Assembly (NCBI RefSeq): GCF_000411555.1
Contig: NZ_KE150486.1
Span: 744,001-808,000 of the forward strand
Length of the DNA stretch: 64,000 bases
Reading direction: 5' to 3'
Source of the DNA: Atopobium sp. oral taxon 199 str. F0494
GTDB taxonomy: Bacteria; Actinomycetota; Coriobacteriia; Coriobacteriales; Atopobiaceae
Under the pieces are notes generated by a model. It was not told where the DNA came from. It did no database searches and saw only the letters and a list, made by a program, of their open reading frames with translations. Of this stretch, positions 36,770 to 54,906 are shown in pieces (the first letter of the stretch is position 1; the number at the start of each line of letters is the position of its first letter). Position numbers and translations under genes: made by a program.

Positions 36770-37942
36770 TTACACCTCAAACGGATGAATCGTAACCCCT
36801 TTGACCACACGATTCACAGTGCCGGACGGCGAAGGGGTATCAGGAGTATTCCCTACACGAACGGAATTCAACAGGGCAATCGTCTGGGCGACAAGGACAA
36901 ACGGCAACGCCAGATAGGCCGCGGGCAGACCCTCTGCTCCCATCGGAAGCGTGAAGGACGCGCCAGTAAACGAGCCTGCCCCCTCTTGCTGAATGCCCAC
37001 GGTAAGCGCGGCAATCCCATCGCCGGAGATCTCATTCAAAATGTCAACGTCATACTGACGCGTATAGGGATCGTTTGCCACAAAAACAAACACGAGCGTT
37101 CGGGCGTCTACAAAGGACTTCGGCCCGTGACGGTATCCCATCGAAGAATCAAATGATGTGGCGTCTTTTCCCGCGGCCAGCTCCAGCACCTTGAGCTGCG
37201 CTTCGCGTGCAAGACCCATGAAGGGGCCGGACCCCAGATATGTAATACGGTCAAAATCCGTCTTGAGCCAGGCGGCTATCTCATCTTCGCGCGCGATGAC
37301 GTTACGTCCAAGCGCCGACGCATCAGCCACCCACACCGCCTTCCTCGCAACGTCTGATTGGTCGAATATAAGCGTAGCGAGAAGCGCCATGCAGCTGAAA
37401 GATCCTGTCATGGCAAAGCCCTGATCGTTTGCATCCGGAATCAAAAGCGTCAGCGCGTTGGAGTCTCTCTCAGCCTCAACGGCGAGCTTACCCTCAGGCG
37501 CGCACGTGATGTTAATGAGTAGCAGCTTCTTTACGAGAGTTTTTGCTATGTTCACAGCCGCAAGGCTCTCTGGGCTGTTGCCGGAACGAGCAAACGACAC
37601 CAGCACCGTAGGGTCGTCCGCGTCAAGCGAACCGTACGGATCAGAAACGATATCGGTCGTTGCTACCGATGCAAACTCAAACGCGTCAGTATCGCCAAAG
37701 CGCCGCAGGTACGGCGTAATGGTATCGCCAACATACTGAGATGTGCCGGCGCCCGTAAAGACAACTCGGGTACGGCGCGCGCCTCCGAGGTCACGGGCAG
37801 ACGCGAGAAACTCATCGATTTTCTCGCGATTGTTCAAGTAGATATCAAGCGTGCCTTCCCAGAGGTCAGGCTGCTGCTTAATCTCGCTCGTGGTAATTTC
37901 CGCACCAAGAGCCTCAAGCTCGGCGGTTGTTGTGTCAAACAT
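36770..37942 (-). CDS. agaS: AgaS-like SIS-domain amino-sugar-phosphate isomerase/deaminase
   Basis: 390 residues with two SIS domains, the first carrying FTGAGTSQYVGD and SFARSGNSPES, the second YLGSGPFMGLAREAQLK and the RHGPKSF motif. AgaS converts galactosamine-6-phosphate to tagatose-6-phosphate plus ammonia. This fits a kinase and class II aldolase encoded at 42.5-44.3 kb. ATG at 37942 follows AAAGGGG. It lies 15 bp after gntR and 31 bp before nagA, in one operon. Confidence 0.9.
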   Translation of the reverse strand: MFDTTTAELEALGAEITTSEIKQQPDLWEGTLDIYLNNREKIDEFLASARDLGGARRTRVVFTGAGTSQYVGDTITPYLRRFGDTDAFEFASVATTDIVSDPYGSLDADDPTVLVSFARSGNSPESLAAVNIAKTLVKKLLLINITCAPEGKLAVEAERDSNALTLLIPDANDQGFAMTGSFSCMALLATLIFDQSDVARKAVWVADASALGRNVIAREDEIAAWLKTDFDRITYLGSGPFMGLAREAQLKVLELAAGKDATSFDSSMGYRHGPKSFVDARTLVFVFVANDPYTRQYDVDILNEISGDGIAALTVGIQQEGAGSFTGASFTLPMGAEGLPAAYLALPFVLVAQTIALLNSVRVGNTPDTPSPSGTVNRVVKGVTIHPFEV

Positions 37943-37957
37943 CAATATCCCCTTTGT

Positions 37958-42476: not shown

Positions 42477-43412
42477 GTGATTCTGACCGTTACGGCAAAC
42501 GCCTCTATCGACAAAGCCTATCGTCTTGCAGGTCCCTTGACAGACGGCACCGTTCACCGCGTTGTCACCTGCGATGACAGTGCGGGCGGTAAGGGGCTGA
42601 ACGCGTCTCGCGCAATCGTTACCTGCGGAGAAGACCTTCTCGCCACCGGATTTGTCGGCGGAAATAACGGCAGGTATCTCTGCGAGCTCGCCGCAAAAGA
42701 CGGTCTCCGCGAGGATTTTGTACGCGTATCCCAAGAAACGCGCTGCTGCGTCAATGTACTTGAGGCAAACAGGCGCTCAACGGAGTTTTTAGAGCCGGGA
42801 CGTCCTGTAACGGATGCAGATGTTGAGGCGCTGCATCAAAAAATCCGCGCGCACACCCCTCAGGCAGACGTCGTTACTATCAACGGAAGCGTTCCCGCGG
42901 GCATGACCCCCGACGCATACGCTGACCTCATAGAGCTGGTGCAGTCGTACGGAACGCCCTGCATTCTTGACACCTCTGGAGAACTTCTTAAGCGCGGAGT
43001 GAGCGCTCGCCCCGCTATGATCAAGCCCAATGCGGACGAAATCGGGCAGCTGCTGGGACGCACGATTACAGACGACACAGACGTACTCAGCGCAGCGCTT
43101 GAGTTGCATGAAGCGGGCATAGAAAACGTAGTAGTTTCGCTTGGTGCAAAAGGGGCGTGCATGGCGTGCTCCGAGGGCGTCTTCCGCGGGTATGCTCCAA
43201 AAATCGATGCTTTGAACCCTGTCGGAGCAGGAGATACGCTGGTCGGCGCCTTTGCAGTAGGACTTTCTCGAGGATATGACGCGCCGGAGCGGCTTCGCTT
43301 CGCTCTGTCATGTGCAAGCGCCAGCTGCCTTATGGAGGGCACCGGCCGTTTTAATCCTGAAATCGCTTCAAAACTCGCAGCACAAACAGAGGTCAAACGT
43401 ATTACTCTATAG
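42477..43412 (+). CDS. PfkB-family sugar-phosphate kinase (tagatose-6-P kinase/1-phosphofructokinase type)
   Basis: 311-residue ribokinase-family enzyme of the LacC/FruK branch. The substrate-end motif is in DSAGGKGLNASRAI and the catalytic motif NPVGAGDTLVGAF (Asp as base). It starts with GTG at 42477 after AAAGGA. Sequence alone cannot separate tagatose-6-phosphate from fructose-1-phosphate kinases. The neighbours (AgaS, class II aldolase) favour phosphorylation of tagatose-6-phosphate to tagatose-1,6-bisphosphate. It is divergent from the PTS genes across an operator-rich spacer. Confidence 0.9.
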   Translation: MILTVTANASIDKAYRLAGPLTDGTVHRVVTCDDSAGGKGLNASRAIVTCGEDLLATGFVGGNNGRYLCELAAKDGLREDFVRVSQETRCCVNVLEANRRSTEFLEPGRPVTDADVEALHQKIRAHTPQADVVTINGSVPAGMTPDAYADLIELVQSYGTPCILDTSGELLKRGVSARPAMIKPNADEIGQLLGRTITDDTDVLSAALELHEAGIENVVVSLGAKGACMACSEGVFRGYAPKIDALNPVGAGDTLVGAFAVGLSRGYDAPERLRFALSCASASCLMEGTGRFNPEIASKLAAQTEVKRITL

Positions 43413-43481: not shown

Positions 43482-44333
43482 ATGTTTGTTTCTACTAAAC
43501 AGATGCTGTTGGACGCACAAGCAGGACACTATGCCGTCGGCGCCTTCAACATCGAAAACCTTGAGTTTGTGATGGCCGTCATTAAAGCGGCCGAAGAGCG
43601 CCGCTCCCCTGTCATTTTGCAGACTACGCCAGGCACCGTAAAGTATGCCAATCTTGGTCTGTTTACCGCGATGGTTCGCGAAGCCGCTGAGCAAGCCACA
43701 GTGCCTGTAGCTTTGCACCTCGATCATGGCGATGGCTTTGACCGCTGCATTCAAGCGGCGCGCGCGGGCTACACTTCCGTCATGATTGACGGCTCTCATG
43801 TGCCTTTTGAGGACAATATCGCTCTTACCGCATCTGTCACTCAGTTCGCCGGTCCTATCGATCTTCCCGTTGAGGCTGAGCTTGGTAAGGTTGGCGGCAA
43901 AGAGGATGACGGCCCTGCGGTTGAGGGTGAAAACCCCTATACCGACCCTGATGAAGCGGTCGAATTTGTCGAGCGCACCCGGTGCACCTCGCTGGCTGTC
44001 GGCGTCGGTACGGCGCACGGCGTCTATAAAGGCATTCCCCATATCGAGCAGGGCGTCCTGAAGGAGATTCGTTCGCGTTTGGACATTCCTTTGGTACTGC
44101 ACGGCACCTCCGGCGTTCCCGACGACCAAGTTGCCGAAGCAATCCAAAACGGCATCTGCAAGGTCAACTACGCCACCGAACTCCGCCAGGCGTTTACCGG
44201 CGCCTTCATGCACTACATGGCCGAGCATCCCGACAACTTTGATCCAAAGAAGCCGTCCATCCCCGGCATGCAGGCCATTACCGATGTTGTCGCCAGCCAC
44301 ATGGACAACCTTGGTTCTTCTCGCAAAGCCTAG
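43482..44333 (+). CDS. Class II ketose-bisphosphate aldolase (tagatose/fructose-bisphosphate type)
   Basis: 283-residue zinc aldolase. Key residues are in ALHLDHGDGFD (catalytic Asp and zinc His), EAELGKVGG (Glu), GVGTAHGVYKG and VLHGTSGV (zinc His), and CKVNYATELR. The length and blocks fit GatY/KbaY as well as FbaA. It cleaves tagatose- or fructose-1,6-bisphosphate to DHAP and glyceraldehyde-3-phosphate. It follows the kinase by 69 bp; that spacer contains two copies of a GGGAAAGG-type ribosome-site-like sequence. As the only aldolase in the window it might also serve glycolysis. Confidence 0.9.
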   Translation: MFVSTKQMLLDAQAGHYAVGAFNIENLEFVMAVIKAAEERRSPVILQTTPGTVKYANLGLFTAMVREAAEQATVPVALHLDHGDGFDRCIQAARAGYTSVMIDGSHVPFEDNIALTASVTQFAGPIDLPVEAELGKVGGKEDDGPAVEGENPYTDPDEAVEFVERTRCTSLAVGVGTAHGVYKGIPHIEQGVLKEIRSRLDIPLVLHGTSGVPDDQVAEAIQNGICKVNYATELRQAFTGAFMHYMAEHPDNFDPKKPSIPGMQAITDVVASHMDNLGSSRKA

Positions 44334-47653: not shown

Positions 47654-48376
47654 TTAGAGACTCAGTTCGTATCTGCCTCCTACAAAGTAATCCCGACTAA
47701 GGCATATTGGTTTTTCTTCTTTATCTACAAAGAATGACTGACTTAAAATAAGCGGTGAAGCTGTTGCTACTTCTAAAAGTCTTGCCTGTTCGGTTGTTGC
47801 TTTTACCGCATTAATGGTCCAAGTTTTACTACTCACGGGCTTTCTTCCCGTAAGTATTTCTATTGCTTCAAAAATTGAGGAATTCTTCAAGGGATACGTG
47901 AGTAATTCACTCGCCCAATCATATGGAATGACGACTCTTTCGTCTGCAATAGGCAGCTCATCAGCAGTCCTTATCCTTCTAATAAATACCATAAGGCTAT
48001 TCTTGGACAAGCTAAAGAACTCCGCTTCATCCTTCTTTGCAGGAACGATTTGTTTATCAACGACACGTGCACCAGGAACTGCTCCGCTCGCTGTACACAT
48101 GTCAGTAAAACTTCGTGATGCAAGGGACTGTTCAAGTCTTCTCTGAATATGACGAGAGCCAACAAATGTACCGCGCCCCTGCATTTTGGTTAAATAACCG
48201 TCGGAGCACAAATCCTCGATTGCTCTTCTAACAGTAATTCTACTTACTGAATATTGCTGACTCAATTCTGTCTCTGAAGGAATCTTTTGATTAACCTTAT
48301 ATTCCCCATCTTTAATGGATTGTTTAAGATCATCATAAATTTGCTGGTAAAGAGGATGAACTGTAGTTACTGACAC
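47654..48376 (-). CDS. GntR/UTRA transcription regulator of the deglycase-PTS locus
   Basis: 240-residue HutC-type regulator. The DNA-binding half has PLYQQIYDDLKQSI, SETELSQQYSVSRITVRRAI and KMQGRGTFVG; the UTRA domain follows from about residue 80. GTG at 48376 is preceded by GGAG. It is at the 3' end of the deglycase-PTS block and separated from it by a strong terminator, so it probably has its own promoter. Its gene is AT-rich like the rest of the block. Likely ligand: the phosphorylated sugar handled by the neighbouring enzymes. Confidence 0.92.
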   Translation of the reverse strand: MSVTTVHPLYQQIYDDLKQSIKDGEYKVNQKIPSETELSQQYSVSRITVRRAIEDLCSDGYLTKMQGRGTFVGSRHIQRRLEQSLASRSFTDMCTASGAVPGARVVDKQIVPAKKDEAEFFSLSKNSLMVFIRRIRTADELPIADERVVIPYDWASELLTYPLKNSSIFEAIEILTGRKPVSSKTWTINAVKATTEQARLLEVATASPLILSQSFFVDKEEKPICLSRDYFVGGRYELSL

Positions 48377-48478
48377 GTATTACTCCAAGTCAACATCATA
48401 GATATCATACAAAATACAGACAGTATAACATCTTAGACATTTCTTCCTGCCAAATTGACAGAATAAAGCAACCTCACA

Positions 48479-48516
48479 AAAAAGCTGCATCAGGATTACT
48501 CCCAATGCAGCTTTTC
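48479..48516. terminator. Two-way terminator at the end of the deglycase-PTS operon
   Basis: AAAAGCTGCAT and ATGCAGCTTTT are perfect 11-base arms around a 14-base loop, with a T6 run on the minus strand. A second perfect 10-bp hairpin (48556-48579) overlaps the stop codon of the upstream deglycase gene. Together they should stop read-through from the operon into the regulator gene. Confidence 0.85.
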
Positions 48517-48577
48517 AAATATCGTATAAAGCACAGAAGCTAGAAGCTCAAACATAACAAGCAAGCGGACTTGCTTG

Positions 48578-49561
48578 TTAATAAGTTAGCTTCCACATAT
48601 AACGACGCATTGTAAGCGGATGCTCGCGTGCTTCAGCGAGTTTCTCGGCATAAACCCTCATGACAGCCGTGTGGATGAATGGATTGAAATAACTCACAAC
48701 ACTCTTTGGAACTGCTCCGGACAATCCGTAGTCTTTGGTATCAATAACAGCTATTTTTGCATCAAATCTCTGCATAAACGTAAGAGCACGAGCATCCATC
48801 TCACGGGTATTTCCTTCTGACATAAACAATAGGTAAGGCTTATCTCTCTCTGTCAGCTCAAACGGACCATGAAAATATTCGCCTGTGTTATAAGCAGCTG
48901 AATCAATCCATTGCATTTCTGAAAAAAGGAACATGGAGGTTGAATAGGCTACCTTCGCAGATGACCCAGAGCCCATAAGATAAATCAGCTGATCGTCTTT
49001 GAAATCATCAGCAAACTTCTGAGCAGACTTTTTCGCACTCTCAGCAGATTTTTCTGCCAATTCATATATGTTGGTAAGACCTGCAACAACATCTTCGTAG
49101 AGATCTGTTTTTTCAACTTGCTGAAGGATCTCTACTGCAAAGTCTAGGGCATAGCCCATTTTTTCAACCTTTGCGGCATAGTTGGCTTCAAAGCCGTGTA
49201 CCACCACATAGTCGGCATCACGAGTAAGGGCTGAATCTCCGGAATGAGTAATGGCCACTACTGGTGCTCCTGCGGCTTTTGCAACTTCATTTGCATGGAT
49301 AGTTTCAGGCGTTCCTCCACCTAAAGAGCAGGTTATCACAAAGGTATGCTCACCAAGCCAAGCAGGTGTGTCGTAATTGAATTCATTTGCCGTAAATATT
49401 TGTACATTAAGCGTTTTCGTATTATTGGCAAGAAAGTACTTTGCAGGATAGAGCTCCGACATCGACGCACCACAGCCCACAAAAGCAACATGAGTAATTT
49501 GATGCGTCTTTAGCACCTCGGAAACAATACGCTTTGGCTGATCCAGATCAATTTCAAACAT
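48578..49561 (-). CDS. SIS-domain sugar-amine deglycase (FrlB/GfrF-like), copy 1
   Basis: 327 residues with two SIS domains: VAFVGCGASMSELYPAKY in the first and YLMGSGSSAKVAYSTSMF in the second. The C-terminal block EYFHGPFELTERDKPYLLF and the ending RRYMWKLTY match the fructoselysine-6-phosphate deglycase FrlB and the Gfr deglycases, which split phosphorylated Amadori products into sugar phosphate and amine. ATG at 49561 follows AAGGAG. It is the last gene of an operon with a mannose-family PTS and a second such enzyme. The exact substrate is inferred. Confidence 0.8.
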   Translation of the reverse strand: MFEIDLDQPKRIVSEVLKTHQITHVAFVGCGASMSELYPAKYFLANNTKTLNVQIFTANEFNYDTPAWLGEHTFVITCSLGGGTPETIHANEVAKAAGAPVVAITHSGDSALTRDADYVVVHGFEANYAAKVEKMGYALDFAVEILQQVEKTDLYEDVVAGLTNIYELAEKSAESAKKSAQKFADDFKDDQLIYLMGSGSSAKVAYSTSMFLFSEMQWIDSAAYNTGEYFHGPFELTERDKPYLLFMSEGNTREMDARALTFMQRFDAKIAVIDTKDYGLSGAVPKSVVSYFNPFIHTAVMRVYAEKLAEAREHPLTMRRYMWKLTY

Positions 49562-49604
49562 GACACGCTCCTTCAAATACCATGTGTGTATAAAACGCCA
49601 AACT

Positions 49605-50432
49605 TTATGCCAGAATTCCCAGCGCAGACAAGACGATTCCACCAACAATTGCTACAACCAAAAGCCATTCTGTTTTGATACCCCGCTTAATGAGCGTGTA
49701 CATGCAGCCGGTTAAGATGAGTGGGATCATCTTTGGCATAACGCTGTCAAGCACCGTCTGCAAAACCAATGTTCCGTCTGCAAAGACCAAAGGCGTCGTT
49801 GTTCCTATAAGAGAAGCAATCATGCTTCCTACTGCCATTAATCCCACAACACCGCAGATGTACATCACTCGTTCCATGGTCTTGCCATCTTGTAGCTTTT
49901 TTAAGTATTGATGACCACCTTGATAGCCAAGCTTTGCTCCAAACCACGTCACAAAGACAGAAGGAATAATGGAGATAAGCATTGCAACAATGGGACCTAA
50001 GATAGAACCTTGCTGTGCTAAAGCAACACCAAGCCCAAAAGCAATAACGCGAATCGTCCCCTGGAAAAACGAATCTCCAATTCCAGAAAGAGGGCCCATA
50101 AGCGACGTCTTCATAGCGTTGATTGCATCCGGATTTACGCTTGTCTGATCTTTTGCATACTCTTCTTCCATAGAGGCGGCAAGACCTAAGACAAAGGCGC
50201 TTGTTTGAGGTGTGCAGTTATAGAACGCCATGTGACGCTTATATGCTTCCTTTTTCAGCTCAAGCTGTTTTGGATCTGACTCATCCGGATAACAGCGATC
50301 GATCGTCGGAGCAATACCATACAAAAAGCCCATGTTCATCTGTCGTTCGTAATTCCAAGAATCCTGAATAGCCCATGAGCGCCAAAAGAATTGGCTGATT
50401 TTCTTGGTAAGAGATACTTCCTTAACTGACAT
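49605..50432 (-). CDS. PTS mannose-family EIID (deglycase system)
   Basis: 275-residue membrane subunit of usual length. Blocks: FWRSWAIQDSWNYERQMNMG, MAFYNCTPQTSAFVLGL, SLMGPLSGIGDSFFQGT and a hydrophobic C-terminus. It pairs with the EIIC encoded just upstream (8-bp gap) to import and phosphorylate the substrate. It lacks the long insert of the EIID at 38.8 kb. Confidence 0.92.
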   Translation of the reverse strand: MSVKEVSLTKKISQFFWRSWAIQDSWNYERQMNMGFLYGIAPTIDRCYPDESDPKQLELKKEAYKRHMAFYNCTPQTSAFVLGLAASMEEEYAKDQTSVNPDAINAMKTSLMGPLSGIGDSFFQGTIRVIAFGLGVALAQQGSILGPIVAMLISIIPSVFVTWFGAKLGYQGGHQYLKKLQDGKTMERVMYICGVVGLMAVGSMIASLIGTTTPLVFADGTLVLQTVLDSVMPKMIPLILTGCMYTLIKRGIKTEWLLVVAIVGGIVLSALGILA

Positions 50433-50440
50433 TTTTCCAC

Positions 50441-51238
50441 CTACTCATCTTCCTCGAGCGGATCATAATCCGACGCTGCATTTCCGGAAATTGCAAGAGA
50501 ACTCTTTCCAAATCGAAGTCCAGAAAGAATAAAGGCAAAAACAACGGCAAACAGAGAAACAGAGGTAATTGACAAGCCTAAGTAAGCTGATAGTAAAAAT
50601 CCCAAGAACAGAAAGGCCGCCATTCCCTTTGAAAGCATCATCGATAGCAGCAAAGCCAAGCCATATGCCGTTAGAATCTGTGCGGAAACATTTAAGCCTG
50701 TGCTCAACCATGCAGGAATTAAATCCACAACAGCTTGAACGGCATCGGTTCCAAGATATACTGCAAAGAATATTGGAATAAAGTACATCAACGAGTACAG
50801 TACGGTACCCACGATAATATGCATGTGAGTTGCACGCTTAAAGTTTCCGTTTTCGATTGCTGCGTCTGCGCTATGTGTCAAGACAGCAATAAGCGAACGA
50901 AACACAATACCAAAAAGCTGTCCAAGAACTGCGATAGGGATAGCAATGGTCATAGCGGTTTCAACACTTGCGCCGGTCAGGCAGGCAAAAGCAGATGCCA
51001 CAATACTACCAAGAACCATATCAGGAGGAACGGCAGCACCGACGGAAACGAGACCCATGCTTACAAGTTCGGTTGCCGCACCAACCGCAAGACCCATGGG
51101 CACATTGCCAAGGACAACTCCTACAAGCGTAGCTCCTACAAGTGGCTGCTCAAAATTCAAACGTCCCAAAAGGCGTGAATCGAGCATACAAAAAACACCA
51201 ACAAGTCCTACTAAAAATGCACTTATGAGGGAATTCAT
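50441..51238 (-). CDS. PTS mannose-family EIIC (deglycase system)
   Basis: 265-residue membrane protein with repeated hydrophobic spans. FEQPLVGATLVGVVLGNVP and VSMGLVSVGAAVPPDMVLG are typical EIIC-Man/Sor blocks. A short acidic cytoplasmic tail ends DYDPLEEDE. It lies between the fused EIIAB and EIID genes. Confidence 0.92.
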   Translation of the reverse strand: MNSLISAFLVGLVGVFCMLDSRLLGRLNFEQPLVGATLVGVVLGNVPMGLAVGAATELVSMGLVSVGAAVPPDMVLGSIVASAFACLTGASVETAMTIAIPIAVLGQLFGIVFRSLIAVLTHSADAAIENGNFKRATHMHIIVGTVLYSLMYFIPIFFAVYLGTDAVQAVVDLIPAWLSTGLNVSAQILTAYGLALLLSMMLSKGMAAFLFLGFLLSAYLGLSITSVSLFAVVFAFILSGLRFGKSSLAISGNAASDYDPLEEDE

Positions 51239-51265
51239 ACACGTCTCCTTTCACATTATAGTTTT

Positions 51266-52198
51266 CTAAATAGAATTCAATTCAACCCGCTGATGAGAAG
51301 GGGTCTGCTGGATATAAATCTTTGAGCCAAGCGCAAGTAATTCCTTAGTGTCCTGTTTCTCAAACTCATTGAGAAACACAGAACTGCCTGATCCGCCGAC
51401 CTGCTCGGCACCGTCCTTATTCGCCGTTGCTCCATAATTTATTTCTTTAAATTGATGGCTCTTGGAAAATTCAAGTAATTCTTTTGTGTTACCAAACACA
51501 AACATGACCGTATCACCTAATGTTGAAAGTTTTTCAAGTTTTGACAGAGCTTTTTCTACCGTAAAGACATTAAGATAGACTCCCGCCGGCTTTGCAAGCT
51601 TCAAAGCTCCCTTTTTAACCTCATCGGTTGCAGCCTCATTATCAACAACAATGATTCTGTTAGCTCCAACGGTATTAACCCAGGAAAATACGATTTGTCC
51701 ATGAAGAAGCCGGTAATCAAGACGCACTAAAGCGGTTTTTGTCTTTTCGCCAATAACTCCCTTGTGAATTTTAGGTGCTATTGCCGCAGGAACATCATTA
51801 ACGGAGTCCTCAGGATTTGAGCAGTCTAAAATACCCCGTCGCCCTTCCATGATTACGTTCTTTATTACTTTATCTGAATCCTCTTTTTCATCCTCCAGAA
51901 CCAAGGTCAAAATCAAAGGTAAATTCATTCCTGAAATAACAGATATATGGGGATGATCGGAAAGAAACTCTACCGCAGAATTATTAACGCTACTTCCCAG
52001 TACATCGGTAAGAATAAATACAGCATCTGCCGGATCAAACGTAGCAATCAAATCATTTAACTTGGTTTTTATCGAATCCGTATCATCACGCTGCAAAGTA
52101 ACCGCATGGATATTGCTCACGTCTCCGACAATCATCCTGACAGTATCAACTGCACCTTCAGCTAAGTTGCCGTGCGATGCCAAAATGATTTGCTTCAT
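51266..52198 (-). CDS. PTS mannose-family EIIAB fusion (deglycase system)
   Basis: 310-residue two-domain phosphocarrier. The EIIA part (about 1-125) has its active His in ILASHGNLAEGAV; the EIIB part (about 155-310) has its active His in LVRLDYRLLHGQIVFSW. A linker with charged residues joins them. In Salmonella the related Gfr system has separate A and B proteins; fusion is common in ManX-type systems. ATG at 52198 follows AAAGGAG by eight bases; an in-frame GTG 18 bases earlier overlaps that site and is less likely. Confidence 0.92.
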   Translation of the reverse strand: MKQIILASHGNLAEGAVDTVRMIVGDVSNIHAVTLQRDDTDSIKTKLNDLIATFDPADAVFILTDVLGSSVNNSAVEFLSDHPHISVISGMNLPLILTLVLEDEKEDSDKVIKNVIMEGRRGILDCSNPEDSVNDVPAAIAPKIHKGVIGEKTKTALVRLDYRLLHGQIVFSWVNTVGANRIIVVDNEAATDEVKKGALKLAKPAGVYLNVFTVEKALSKLEKLSTLGDTVMFVFGNTKELLEFSKSHQFKEINYGATANKDGAEQVGGSGSSVFLNEFEKQDTKELLALGSKIYIQQTPSHQRVELNSI

Positions 52199-52322
52199 AT
52201 TTGACACTCCTTTCACGCTATAACATATCAGACATCATATACGTCCTATACAGATAAATACTCATCTTGTTTTGATGGTGCTCTATACTTCGGTCAACGG
52301 TCATTTACAAGGGGCAAACGGA

Positions 52323-53303
52323 CTAATACGCAACTTTCCACATATATCTTCTCGTCATATAATCCTTTGGAATAGCCTGCGACAAGGCACGCATATAGAC
52401 ATTGTTAAGAATGGGTGAGAACAGAATGTGATTGAAGTATTCTGATACCTCATCTGGAATAGCATCTAAACCAATCTCTTTCCCGTCCAAAAGATAAATC
52501 TTTTCTCCCCCATGCCACTTGAGAAATGTAACTGCCCTCTCATCAGCCGGCCTGCAGCGCCCAACAGACACCAACATAAAAAATGGCTTATTCATATCAA
52601 GCACCTCAAATGGTCCATGAAAAAACTCACATGAATTGACCGTAGGAGAATCAATCTGGAGCATCTCTTCTATATTGCAGATTGAAAAAATATAGGCTGA
52701 TCCAAATGCCGGACCTGAACCCATTACGTATATCGTTGGCTCTTTCGCAACAGTATCTGCCCACTTTTTTGCCAATGGTGTTGTATGCTCTACGGCTTTT
52801 CTATAGAGCGCATCAACCTTACCAAACACATCCATAGCTGTTTGGTAATAATCGTAACCTTCAACTTCATAAACCAGGGTCATCGCGATGCAGAGTCCTA
52901 TACTGGAATTGACTCTCTCTGTTTTGCTTGAATCTAAGGCAATGGATTCATACTTAATCTTTGCATCGCAGTTTTTCGTAAGATCAGATTCATCTACATA
53001 AAGGGCAAGAACATAAGCTCCTCGTTCACGCGCCACTTGAGCCGCGTCGCACGTCTCTTTCGTTCCTCTCATTGAACATACCACACAAAGAGCATCCTCG
53101 CCCACCTTGGCAGGAGTTGCTAGAGCAAACTCTTTGCTGGTAATCATATATGTTGAAATTGTCTTCGATTCGCATTGCATAAAATAATTAGCTGGATAGA
53201 AGCCACCATAGGAGCCTCCTGCTGCAATCCAATATACCTGATGGATTGCCCGTTCTAAAACAATGTGTCTGACGAGATCTGAGATTTCTTTTTGAACGTC
53301 CAT
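52323..53303 (-). CDS. SIS-domain sugar-amine deglycase (FrlB/GfrF-like), copy 2
   Basis: 326 residues, two SIS domains (YWIAAGGSYGGFYPANYF and YVMGSGPAFGSAYIF), then CEFFHGPFEVLDMNKPFF and a C-terminal RRYMWKVAY. It is a diverged paralogue of the enzyme at 48.6 kb; two different deglycases beside one mannose-family PTS is the arrangement of the glucoselysine/fructoselysine (gfr) operon. It is the first gene of the operon; AAGGGA precedes the ATG, and a 41-bp palindrome lies just upstream. Confidence 0.8.
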   Translation of the reverse strand: MDVQKEISDLVRHIVLERAIHQVYWIAAGGSYGGFYPANYFMQCESKTISTYMITSKEFALATPAKVGEDALCVVCSMRGTKETCDAAQVARERGAYVLALYVDESDLTKNCDAKIKYESIALDSSKTERVNSSIGLCIAMTLVYEVEGYDYYQTAMDVFGKVDALYRKAVEHTTPLAKKWADTVAKEPTIYVMGSGPAFGSAYIFSICNIEEMLQIDSPTVNSCEFFHGPFEVLDMNKPFFMLVSVGRCRPADERAVTFLKWHGGEKIYLLDGKEIGLDAIPDEVSEYFNHILFSPILNNVYMRALSQAIPKDYMTRRYMWKVAY

Positions 53304-53622
53304 TTCAGTCCCTTCATAATATATACTAGATGTATATAACGTATAGTATATATTATAAAAACACTATAGCAAGAGTGAATCTCCTTCTCTTTCAATATTA
53401 TTCTTCAAAAAGATGCGAAAGATACAAAACTGCTCGTTAGAGAGAAATTTACATTTTGGTAGCTGTATATCTTGACTCTCCAAAAGCATTACAAATACTT
53501 CTTATAGCGAACTAAGGTTACAAATTTCATCAGTTATAACTTATAAAATAATGATTTAATCATAAACTTTAAGATATAAGTGATATATACTACTCTCAGC
53601 CAAGAGGAAGGCTGCGAAACTT
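53304..53622. promoter_or_regulatory. AT-rich divergent promoter region with 41-bp palindrome
   Basis: 319-bp spacer between the deglycase-PTS operon and the DUF4143 ATPase gene. ATAATATATACTA (53316-53328) and TAGTATATATTAT (53344-53356) form a perfect 13-bp inverted repeat around a 15-base centre, 13 bases before the deglycase start codon; this is a good place for the local GntR/UTRA regulator to bind. The rest is very AT-rich, with a smaller ATGATT/AATCAT repeat near 53552-53564 and no open reading frame that I can support. Confidence 0.6.
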
Positions 53623-54837
53623 ATGATTAAACGTGAACTATATATGGGTCGCATACGCCCGTTTATCGGGTCAGATCTTATAAAGGTCATGACCGGTATT
53701 CGTCGCTGTGGAAAGTCAGTCATGTTAGAACTGATTAAGCAAGAGCTCATAGAGTCAGGCGTCGATCCAGCACAGTTAATTTCCATCAATTTTGAAGATA
53801 TGAACTACTCCCATCTACAAACCGCTCAGGCTCTGCACGATGAGATTACCAAGAGATCCGCAGAGATTGAAGGCAAGGCCTATTTATTCTTTGATGAAAT
53901 ACAGGAGGTCACCGACTGGGAAAAGTGCATCAACTCTTTTCGTGTTTCCCTAGATTGTGACATCTATATCACCGGATCGAATGCAAAACTGTTGTCCGGC
54001 GAACTTGCAACCTACTTGGGTGGACGTTATGTGGAGTTTATAATTTATCCATTTTCATTCAGAGAGTTCATAGAGCTATATCGCCCTGATGCTCCCAATG
54101 CATCAATCCAGAAGTGCTTCCAGAAGTATTTGCTTCTCGGAGGTATGCCTTACCTTGCAAACCTCCGCTACACCGATGCTCCATCCAAGCAATACCTTCA
54201 AGATTTATTCAACTCTGTCCAGCTGAAGGATATCGTCAAGCGAAATAAAATCAGAGATGTTGACCTGCTTGAGCGAATCATCTCTTATGTGATGGCCAAT
54301 ATGGGCACGACCTTCTCAGCAAACTCTCTTGCAAAGTTCCTTAAAAACGAGCATCGCACCACTGCTCCAGAAACAATCCTCAACTACATTAAATACTGTT
54401 GTGAGGCTTACCTGTTCTATCAGGTAAAACGAGAAGACATACAAGGTAAACAGGTCCTTGCTTCCAACGAGAAGTACTACATTGCTGATCACGGTATCCG
54501 TGAAGCTGTTTTCGGCGGCAACACGCGTGATATCAATCTCGTTTTAGAAAATATCGTCTACTTAGAATTGCTGCGCCGAGGTTATGAAATAACTGTTGGC
54601 AGAGCGGGCGATAAGGAAATTGATTTTGTATGCAATAGACATGGCGAAAAGCTGTATGTTCAAGTTGCGTATCTTCTTGCATCGGAAGAAACAATCAGCC
54701 GTGAGTTCGACGTATATGATTCCATCCGTGACAATTTCCCAAAGTATGTTGTTTCTCTCGACGAATTCGACATGAGCAGAAATGGTATTAAGCACCAAAA
54801 TATCTGTGATTTCCTCTTAGCCGAAGAGTGGAACTAA
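53623..54837 (+). CDS. AAA ATPase with DUF4143 domain
   Basis: 404 residues. The N-terminal AAA_14 ATPase has Walker A TGIRRCGKSVML, Walker B YLFFDEIQEV and the sensor-like YITGSNAKLLSG, followed by LGGRYVEFIIYPFSFREF. The C-terminal DUF4143 domain contains ENIVYLELLRRGYEITVG and KEIDFVCNRHGEKLYVQV, which resembles a nuclease-like core (Glu-Asp, Gln-Val). This family is common, often in variable genome regions, and its function is unknown. GAGGAAGG precedes the ATG by 11 bases. It lies beside the AT-rich sugar block and has similar composition. Confidence 0.88.
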   Translation: MIKRELYMGRIRPFIGSDLIKVMTGIRRCGKSVMLELIKQELIESGVDPAQLISINFEDMNYSHLQTAQALHDEITKRSAEIEGKAYLFFDEIQEVTDWEKCINSFRVSLDCDIYITGSNAKLLSGELATYLGGRYVEFIIYPFSFREFIELYRPDAPNASIQKCFQKYLLLGGMPYLANLRYTDAPSKQYLQDLFNSVQLKDIVKRNKIRDVDLLERIISYVMANMGTTFSANSLAKFLKNEHRTTAPETILNYIKYCCEAYLFYQVKREDIQGKQVLASNEKYYIADHGIREAVFGGNTRDINLVLENIVYLELLRRGYEITVGRAGDKEIDFVCNRHGEKLYVQVAYLLASEETISREFDVYDSIRDNFPKYVVSLDEFDMSRNGIKHQNICDFLLAEEWN

Positions 54838-54847
54838 AAACACAATG

Positions 54848-54876
54848 CCCGTCACAGTTTTGAAAGCTGTAACGGG
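54848..54876. terminator. Hairpin between the convergent ATPase and metY genes
   Basis: CCCGT and ACGGG arms, extended by ACAG/CTGT with one mismatched pair between, form a stem with a 9-base loop. It lies 11 bp after the ATPase stop and 30 bp before the metY stop, and probably serves both directions. Confidence 0.6.
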
Positions 54877-54906
54877 AATGGTACTTACTTTCGGTAATTC
54901 TTACAT

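Follow-up and report, generated by a model that had tools for sequence, protein, structure and literature searches.

A minus-strand gene cluster at positions 47654-53303 of the window (the whole 64,000-nucleotide stretch of DNA analyzed) was originally predicted to be a transferred locus with the gene content of the Salmonella operon for glucoselysine and fructoselysine (Gfr). The questions it raises are whether its enzymes are those of Gfr, what the operon may do and where it came from. We propose, with a probability of about 0.68, that it is an acquired, GntR-repressed PTS operon that would import, phosphorylate and split Amadori-type compounds by means of two FraB-type deglycases, and that it is probably a cousin, not a copy, of the Salmonella operon for glucoselysine and fructoselysine. 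The observations behind this reading are the gene content, the clade of the enzymes, the insertion, the conservation of a putative operator and the exchange of PTS and kinase near related genes.

Six genes were distinguished on the minus strand, in the predicted content and order: a GntR/UTRA regulator, SIS2, EIID, EIIC, a fused EIIAB and SIS1. By our naming, SIS2 is the SIS gene adjoining the regulator (48578-49561) and SIS1 the promoter-proximal one (52323-53303). The regulator (47654-48376) is a predicted GntR/HutC-type repressor, composed of a GntR helix-turn-helix (Pfam GntR, 1e-21) and a UTRA effector domain (1.6e-23). The mannose-family PTS comprises EIID (49605-50432; Pfam EIID-AGA, 3e-86), EIIC (50441-51238; Pfam EII-Sor, 6e-68) and a fused EIIA-EIIB protein (51266-52216; Pfam EIIA-man and PTSIIB_sorb) carrying the phosphohistidine motifs SHG and RLLHGQ. 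SIS2 most likely starts at ATG 49561 rather than at TTG 49648, and EIIAB is likely to start at ATG 52198, downstream of AAAGGAG. A putative terminator (48480-48515, minus strand), consisting of an inverted repeat with 16-nt arms (88%) and a T-run, lies 3' of SIS2, so that gntR is probably a separate transcription unit. Elsewhere in the window, a further SIS-domain ORF (391 aa; 36770-37945) lies about 5 kb away from two ORFs resembling a PfkB kinase (42477-43412) and a class II aldolase (43482-44333).

The presence of two diverged FrlB/FraB-type SIS enzymes next to one mannose-family PTS was confirmed: the PTS assignment holds in Pfam, and SIS1 and SIS2 share 34% identity. In a PDB sequence search, both were closest to FraB (9otj and mutants), STM0572 (3fkj) and B. 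subtilis FrlB (3eua), with E-values of 1e-49 to 1e-76, while the matches to Salmonella GfrF/FrlB (2a3n and 8glr) were far weaker (1e-16 to 1e-22); GlmS was also matched far less well than the three closest proteins. Foldseek gave the same ranking (1e-22 to 1e-27 for FraB-type entries vs. 1e-16 to 1e-17) with AlphaFold models that are of low confidence near the active site (residues 204-235). According to the PDB titles, 9otj is the Salmonella FraB deglycase, 9otu is FraB E214A, 8glr is a 6-phosphofructose lysine deglycase and 2a3n is STM4540.s; since STM4535-40 correspond to gfrABCDEF (PMC4987338), 2a3n is GfrF. This entry and a Klebsiella operon (GfrF 83% identical), which also gave GfrE, were used as the gfr reference. 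The window SIS proteins are 19-27% identical to GfrE/GfrF, and 42% (SIS2) and 39% (SIS1) identical to FraB. Specifically, SIS2 shares 19-25% identity with GfrE, with which SIS1 gave no match, and both share 24-27% with GfrF, which falls in a separate clade.

In a tree of 65 proteins, with which an earlier, larger tree is concordant, the SIS1 and SIS2 groups are each supported at 100/100, and the GfrE and GfrF groups (each 100/99) stand apart from the window proteins. Judged by sequence, both window proteins are members of a deglycase clade with FraB, STM0572 and B. subtilis FrlB (node support 97/88): SIS2 is a predicted fructosamine-6-phosphate deglycase of the FraB/B. subtilis FrlB clade, and SIS1 a predicted deglycase on its FraB/STM0572 side. 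AU tests rejected a grouping of either SIS protein with GfrE (p = 0.0006 and 0.001); the rejection of a grouping with GfrF was weaker (p = 0.015 and 0.036). No grouping with glucosamine enzymes was found, GlmS being a distant outgroup with a profile score well under the cut-off. A single duplication giving rise to SIS1 and SIS2 as sister copies was weakly rejected (AU test, p = 0.02).

Because SIS1 and SIS2 lie outside the GfrE and GfrF clades, assignment to a Gfr locus fails on the enzymes. A Gfr gene content is likewise not supported: the locus has no GfrE or GfrF orthologue, and no LevR-type sigma-54 activator was found beside the operon, where the GntR/UTRA gene is the only regulator. The mannose-family EIIA, EIIB, EIIC and EIID expected of a Gfr system are all present (Pfam), with A and B fused, and the statement that the operon works like Gfr, i.e., by a PTS and phospho-fructosamine deglycases, stands.

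Several known systems resemble the operon in part. The Salmonella gfrABCDEF operon and its Klebsiella orthologue also combine one mannose-family PTS with two SIS-type enzymes, but have separate A and B, the LevR-type sigma-54 activator GfrR, and GfrE and GfrF from other clades. Salmonella FraB, a 6-phosphofructose-aspartate deglycase associated with fructose-asparagine, has the same fold and catalytic Glu/His as SIS1 and SIS2; the fra system, however, has the kinase FraD instead of a PTS (PMC4941530) and a single deglycase. A kinase also occurs in the neighborhood of fraB in Klebsiella. The putative PTS operon STM0577-72 of Salmonella encodes STM0572, 36-39% identical to the window SIS proteins, but is under a sigma-54 activator (STM0571), and the likeness rests on the SIS protein and the putative PTS. 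A strain-variable, suspected mobile fructoselysine PTS operon of the gut bacterium Faecalibacterium prausnitzii contains a deglycase, but was mapped by its authors to gfrABCDF, without gfrE (PMC12136445).

The operon might still be a functional Gfr system, in which one SIS protein cleaves fructoselysine-6-phosphate and the other glucoselysine-6-phosphate by specificity that arose convergently in another clade. The layout of one mannose-family PTS and two SIS enzymes is identical, specificity can shift within a clade, and the two operon types occur together in C. aerofaciens and in Enterococcus. We nevertheless consider this unlikely, as SIS1 and SIS2 group with neither GfrE nor GfrF, and as a second fructoselysine system would be redundant in both C. 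aerofaciens and the host, where GfrF-type genes are already accompanied by a PTS of their own (in the host at about 158 kb of contig C2). The separate GfrF-type PTS operon of the host (contig C2, approximately 154.4-160.8 kb; L185 4443-10781) comprises two GntR genes, a GfrF-clade SIS gene, an FrlC-like epimerase gene and separate genes for EIIA, EIIB, EIIC and EIID. Its GfrF-type gene is probably shared with G025, a genome of the same species, and with G024, which is from a sister species, since each encodes an SIS protein of the same length and with the same weak match to SIS1. In C. aerofaciens, locus L232 has the order GntR-GntR-SIS-SIS-EIIA-EIIB-EIIC-EIID-MFS, with a further GfrF-like SIS gene and an epimerase gene. 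It is a GfrE/GfrF-type operon, distinct from the SIS1/SIS2-type operon that many strains of this species also carry. The window operon, as a second, different system beside the GfrF-type one, would thus be expected to have a different substrate range.

Operons of the same kind are widespread and apparently uncharacterized: a literature search of papers open without subscription found neither a biochemically characterized member of this exact operon family nor a paper describing the family. Fructoselysine use by Collinsella has reportedly been studied. Of 140 genomes in the family Atopobiaceae, 27 besides the host encode SIS1 (at least 50% identity), and the gene order there is nearly always SIS1-EIIA(B)-EIIC-EIID-SIS2 plus a GntR gene. 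SIS1 was also found in Collinsella, Enorma, Enterococcus cecorum, E. avium, E. raffinosus, Pediococcus, Lactobacillus and others. The two SIS proteins are unlikely to be an obligate pair, since each occurs without the other. The EIIAB fusion, originally pointed to as a difference from Salmonella, is present but not peculiar to this locus. It is found in most Olsenella, Parafannyhessea and Collinsella loci, whereas EIIA and EIIB are separate in rumen Atopobiaceae and in Firmicutes; because this pattern follows lineage, the fusion is a lineage variant, common in Coriobacteriia. In most relatives, SIS2 and gntR are separated by a beta-phosphoglucomutase-like HAD gene; the window locus lacks this gene, and a HAD homologue encoded elsewhere in the host genome shares only 25% identity. 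On conjugative plasmids of Pediococcus pentosaceus (from food; L175) and Enterococcus gilvus (from milk; L177), a SIS1/SIS2 PTS operon was observed, in both cases with a LevR-type activator in addition to GntR. An E. faecium megaplasmid (L180/L240) carries a PTS operon in which a SIS2 relative (59% identical) occurs without SIS1, together with genes for a LevR-type activator and a HAD protein; a possible link to the E. faecium colonization gene ptsD was dropped, as ptsD lies elsewhere, on a different record.

Control by GntR in place of a sigma-54 activator is probable for the window locus; Firmicutes members of the operon family carry the LevR-type activator, so that the type of regulator is no oddity of this locus. 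At the same place in the Atopobiaceae and Collinsella operons, regulators 44-65% identical to the window GntR protein are encoded. Support for GntR control comes from a conserved putative operator before the operon, with the consensus YGTATATAACG. An exact match occurs within 250 bp upstream of SIS1 in 7 of 10 sequences (the window and nine relatives), most of them of 63-67% G+C, compared with 0.00 per shuffle set, a test that is partly circular because the motif was derived from the same ten sequences. Independent support is provided by Collinsella, in which the motif is also located 35-49 bp upstream of gntR, and by two Atopobiaceae, in which it lies upstream of EIIAB and is missing before SIS1. 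The core in the window, TGTATATAACG (53331-53341, plus strand), is placed in a predicted operator region (53313-53359), where it forms part of an imperfect inverted repeat of 21 nt that overlaps with a promoter-like -10 element (53357-53352, minus strand); a promoter scan gave fewer matches than shuffles and carries little weight. The natural reading is that the local GntR protein would repress the operon and that the substrate or its 6-phosphate would relieve this repression.

The predicted drop in base composition was found, as the G+C content of the operon is 42.5%, compared with 52.0 ± 3.6% across 118 stretches of 5.65 kb sampled from the window and five other stretches of the same genome (1.67 Mb, 99.6% complete); the drop is marked, yet not unique, the lowest sampled stretch having 40.9%. 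The transfer deduced from it is borne out by empty sites: the DNA containing the whole operon (47656-53520) is missing from G025 and G024, in which both operon flanks are directly joined. Identity to these genomes extends on the left up to about 47655, resumes from about 53521 to 53585, and resumes again from 54883. About 65 bp of native DNA (about 53521-53585) thus separate two insertions, one of approximately 5.9 kb with the operon and one of approximately 1.3 kb with an ATPase gene. The second insertion (53586-54882), likewise missing from G025 and G024, contains a single AAA_14/DUF4143 ATPase gene (53623-54837; Pfam), across which the A+T-rich stretch extends beyond the operon. At the insertion joints no integrase, transposase or target duplication was seen.

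Alternatively, the locus could be ancestral, with loss in the sister strains. In the tree, SIS1 and SIS2 are each placed beside proteins of Olsenella and Parafannyhessea, named relatives of the host in the same family, in which 27 other genomes carry SIS1. This origin is quite improbable, however, given the low G+C content of the operon and the four other genomes of the genus, none of which contains SIS2 or a close SIS1 and two of which share one empty site to within a few bases. The operon is a clear insertion; loss would require two deletions with identical ends, a far less simple explanation than a gain.

The surroundings of SIS1 relatives bear on the form of the substrate. Among the best 80 SIS1 loci, 55 have EIIC without a PfkB kinase and 18 a kinase without EIIC; none has both, and the seven with neither are mostly on short contigs. 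As a PTS makes a kinase unnecessary, this exchange fits an enzyme needing a 6-phosphorylated fructosamine. Fisher's test gives p = 1e-12, but the loci are related, so that the count and not the p-value is the evidence. The count itself is inflated by relatedness, PTS loci being mostly from Coriobacteriia and Lactobacillales and kinase loci mostly from Clostridia, with three PTS forms (L153, L171 and L173) as partial exceptions. The kinase form in Lachnospiraceae (GntR-PfkB-binding protein-two permeases-FrlC-like-SIS1) is close in content to B. subtilis frlBONMD and has the same layout of kinase and ABC importer; in that operon, whose FrlB is in the same clade as SIS1 and SIS2, ABC uptake and the FrlD kinase replace the PTS of the window operon. 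Import of an amino sugar or of its acid by the PTS, with the SIS proteins as deaminases or isomerases (GlmS/NagB-II/AgaS-like), is very improbable: the PTS profile matches are of the mannose/GalNAc type and NCBIfam glmS is the top SIS2 profile (89.9 vs. 89.4 bits for FrlB, far below the cut-off), but pairwise, structural and tree evidence places SIS1 and SIS2 with deglycases, away from GlmS, SIS1 relatives occur in a kinase/ABC/FrlC context, and D-glucosaminate systems are not known to use SIS enzymes.

In the operon for Amadori-type compounds that we favor, EIIAB, EIIC and EIID would import the compound and phosphorylate its C-6 during transport, and SIS1 and SIS2 would cleave the resulting 6-phospho-fructosamines to hexose 6-phosphate and a free amino acid. 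The deglycase chemistry, the phosphorylation site, repression and induction are what we infer. Both proteins retain the Glu and His that correspond in the alignment to FraB E214 and H230 (E215 and H231 in SIS2), with the His located in FFHGPFE; the substitution E214A makes FraB catalytically inactive (PMC10100877). GlmS has the same Glu/His pair, which is therefore no proof of deglycation. SIS1 has EEMLQID in place of the EMQWI shared by FraB, SIS2 and B. subtilis FrlB, and this altered active-site loop suggests a different substrate for SIS1. Points against the favored reading are this loop, the HAD gene that relatives carry and the window locus lacks, the support of only 97/88 for the FraB-clade node and the p-value of 0.036 in one of the tests with GfrF. 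In a Lactobacillus relative of SIS1 (L122, 8001-8990), Asn replaces the conserved catalytic His, and the enzyme is possibly inactive or altered. Two enzymes per transporter would suggest two kinds of substrate, which may differ in their amino acid or be of the Amadori type in one case and the Heyns type in the other. The most speculative element is that the substrate may be an alpha-glycated amino acid rather than epsilon-glycated lysine; alpha-glycated amino acids are the preferred substrates of B. subtilis FrlB (PMC12632257).

Any operon of this sort tends to be labeled gfr or frlB, by annotation pipelines and readers alike. Here, two operon families with different enzymes were told apart within one genome, and a candidate regulator-operator pair was obtained, together with evidence that a gut-type actinobacterium gained the operon at the level of strains and that lactic acid bacteria carry such operons on conjugative plasmids; these make the substrate range directly testable. 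Heated food delivers large amounts of Amadori compounds to the gut, and their microbial consumers are under active study (Salmonella Gfr, Faecalibacterium, infant formula studies). We tentatively suggest, at somewhat less than even odds, that the operon represents a distinct, unnamed mobile pathway of Coriobacteriia (including many C. aerofaciens strains) and Lactobacillales, in which PTS-coupled use of alpha-glycated amino acids by the SIS1 and SIS2 deglycases may exist beside Gfr, not replacing it.
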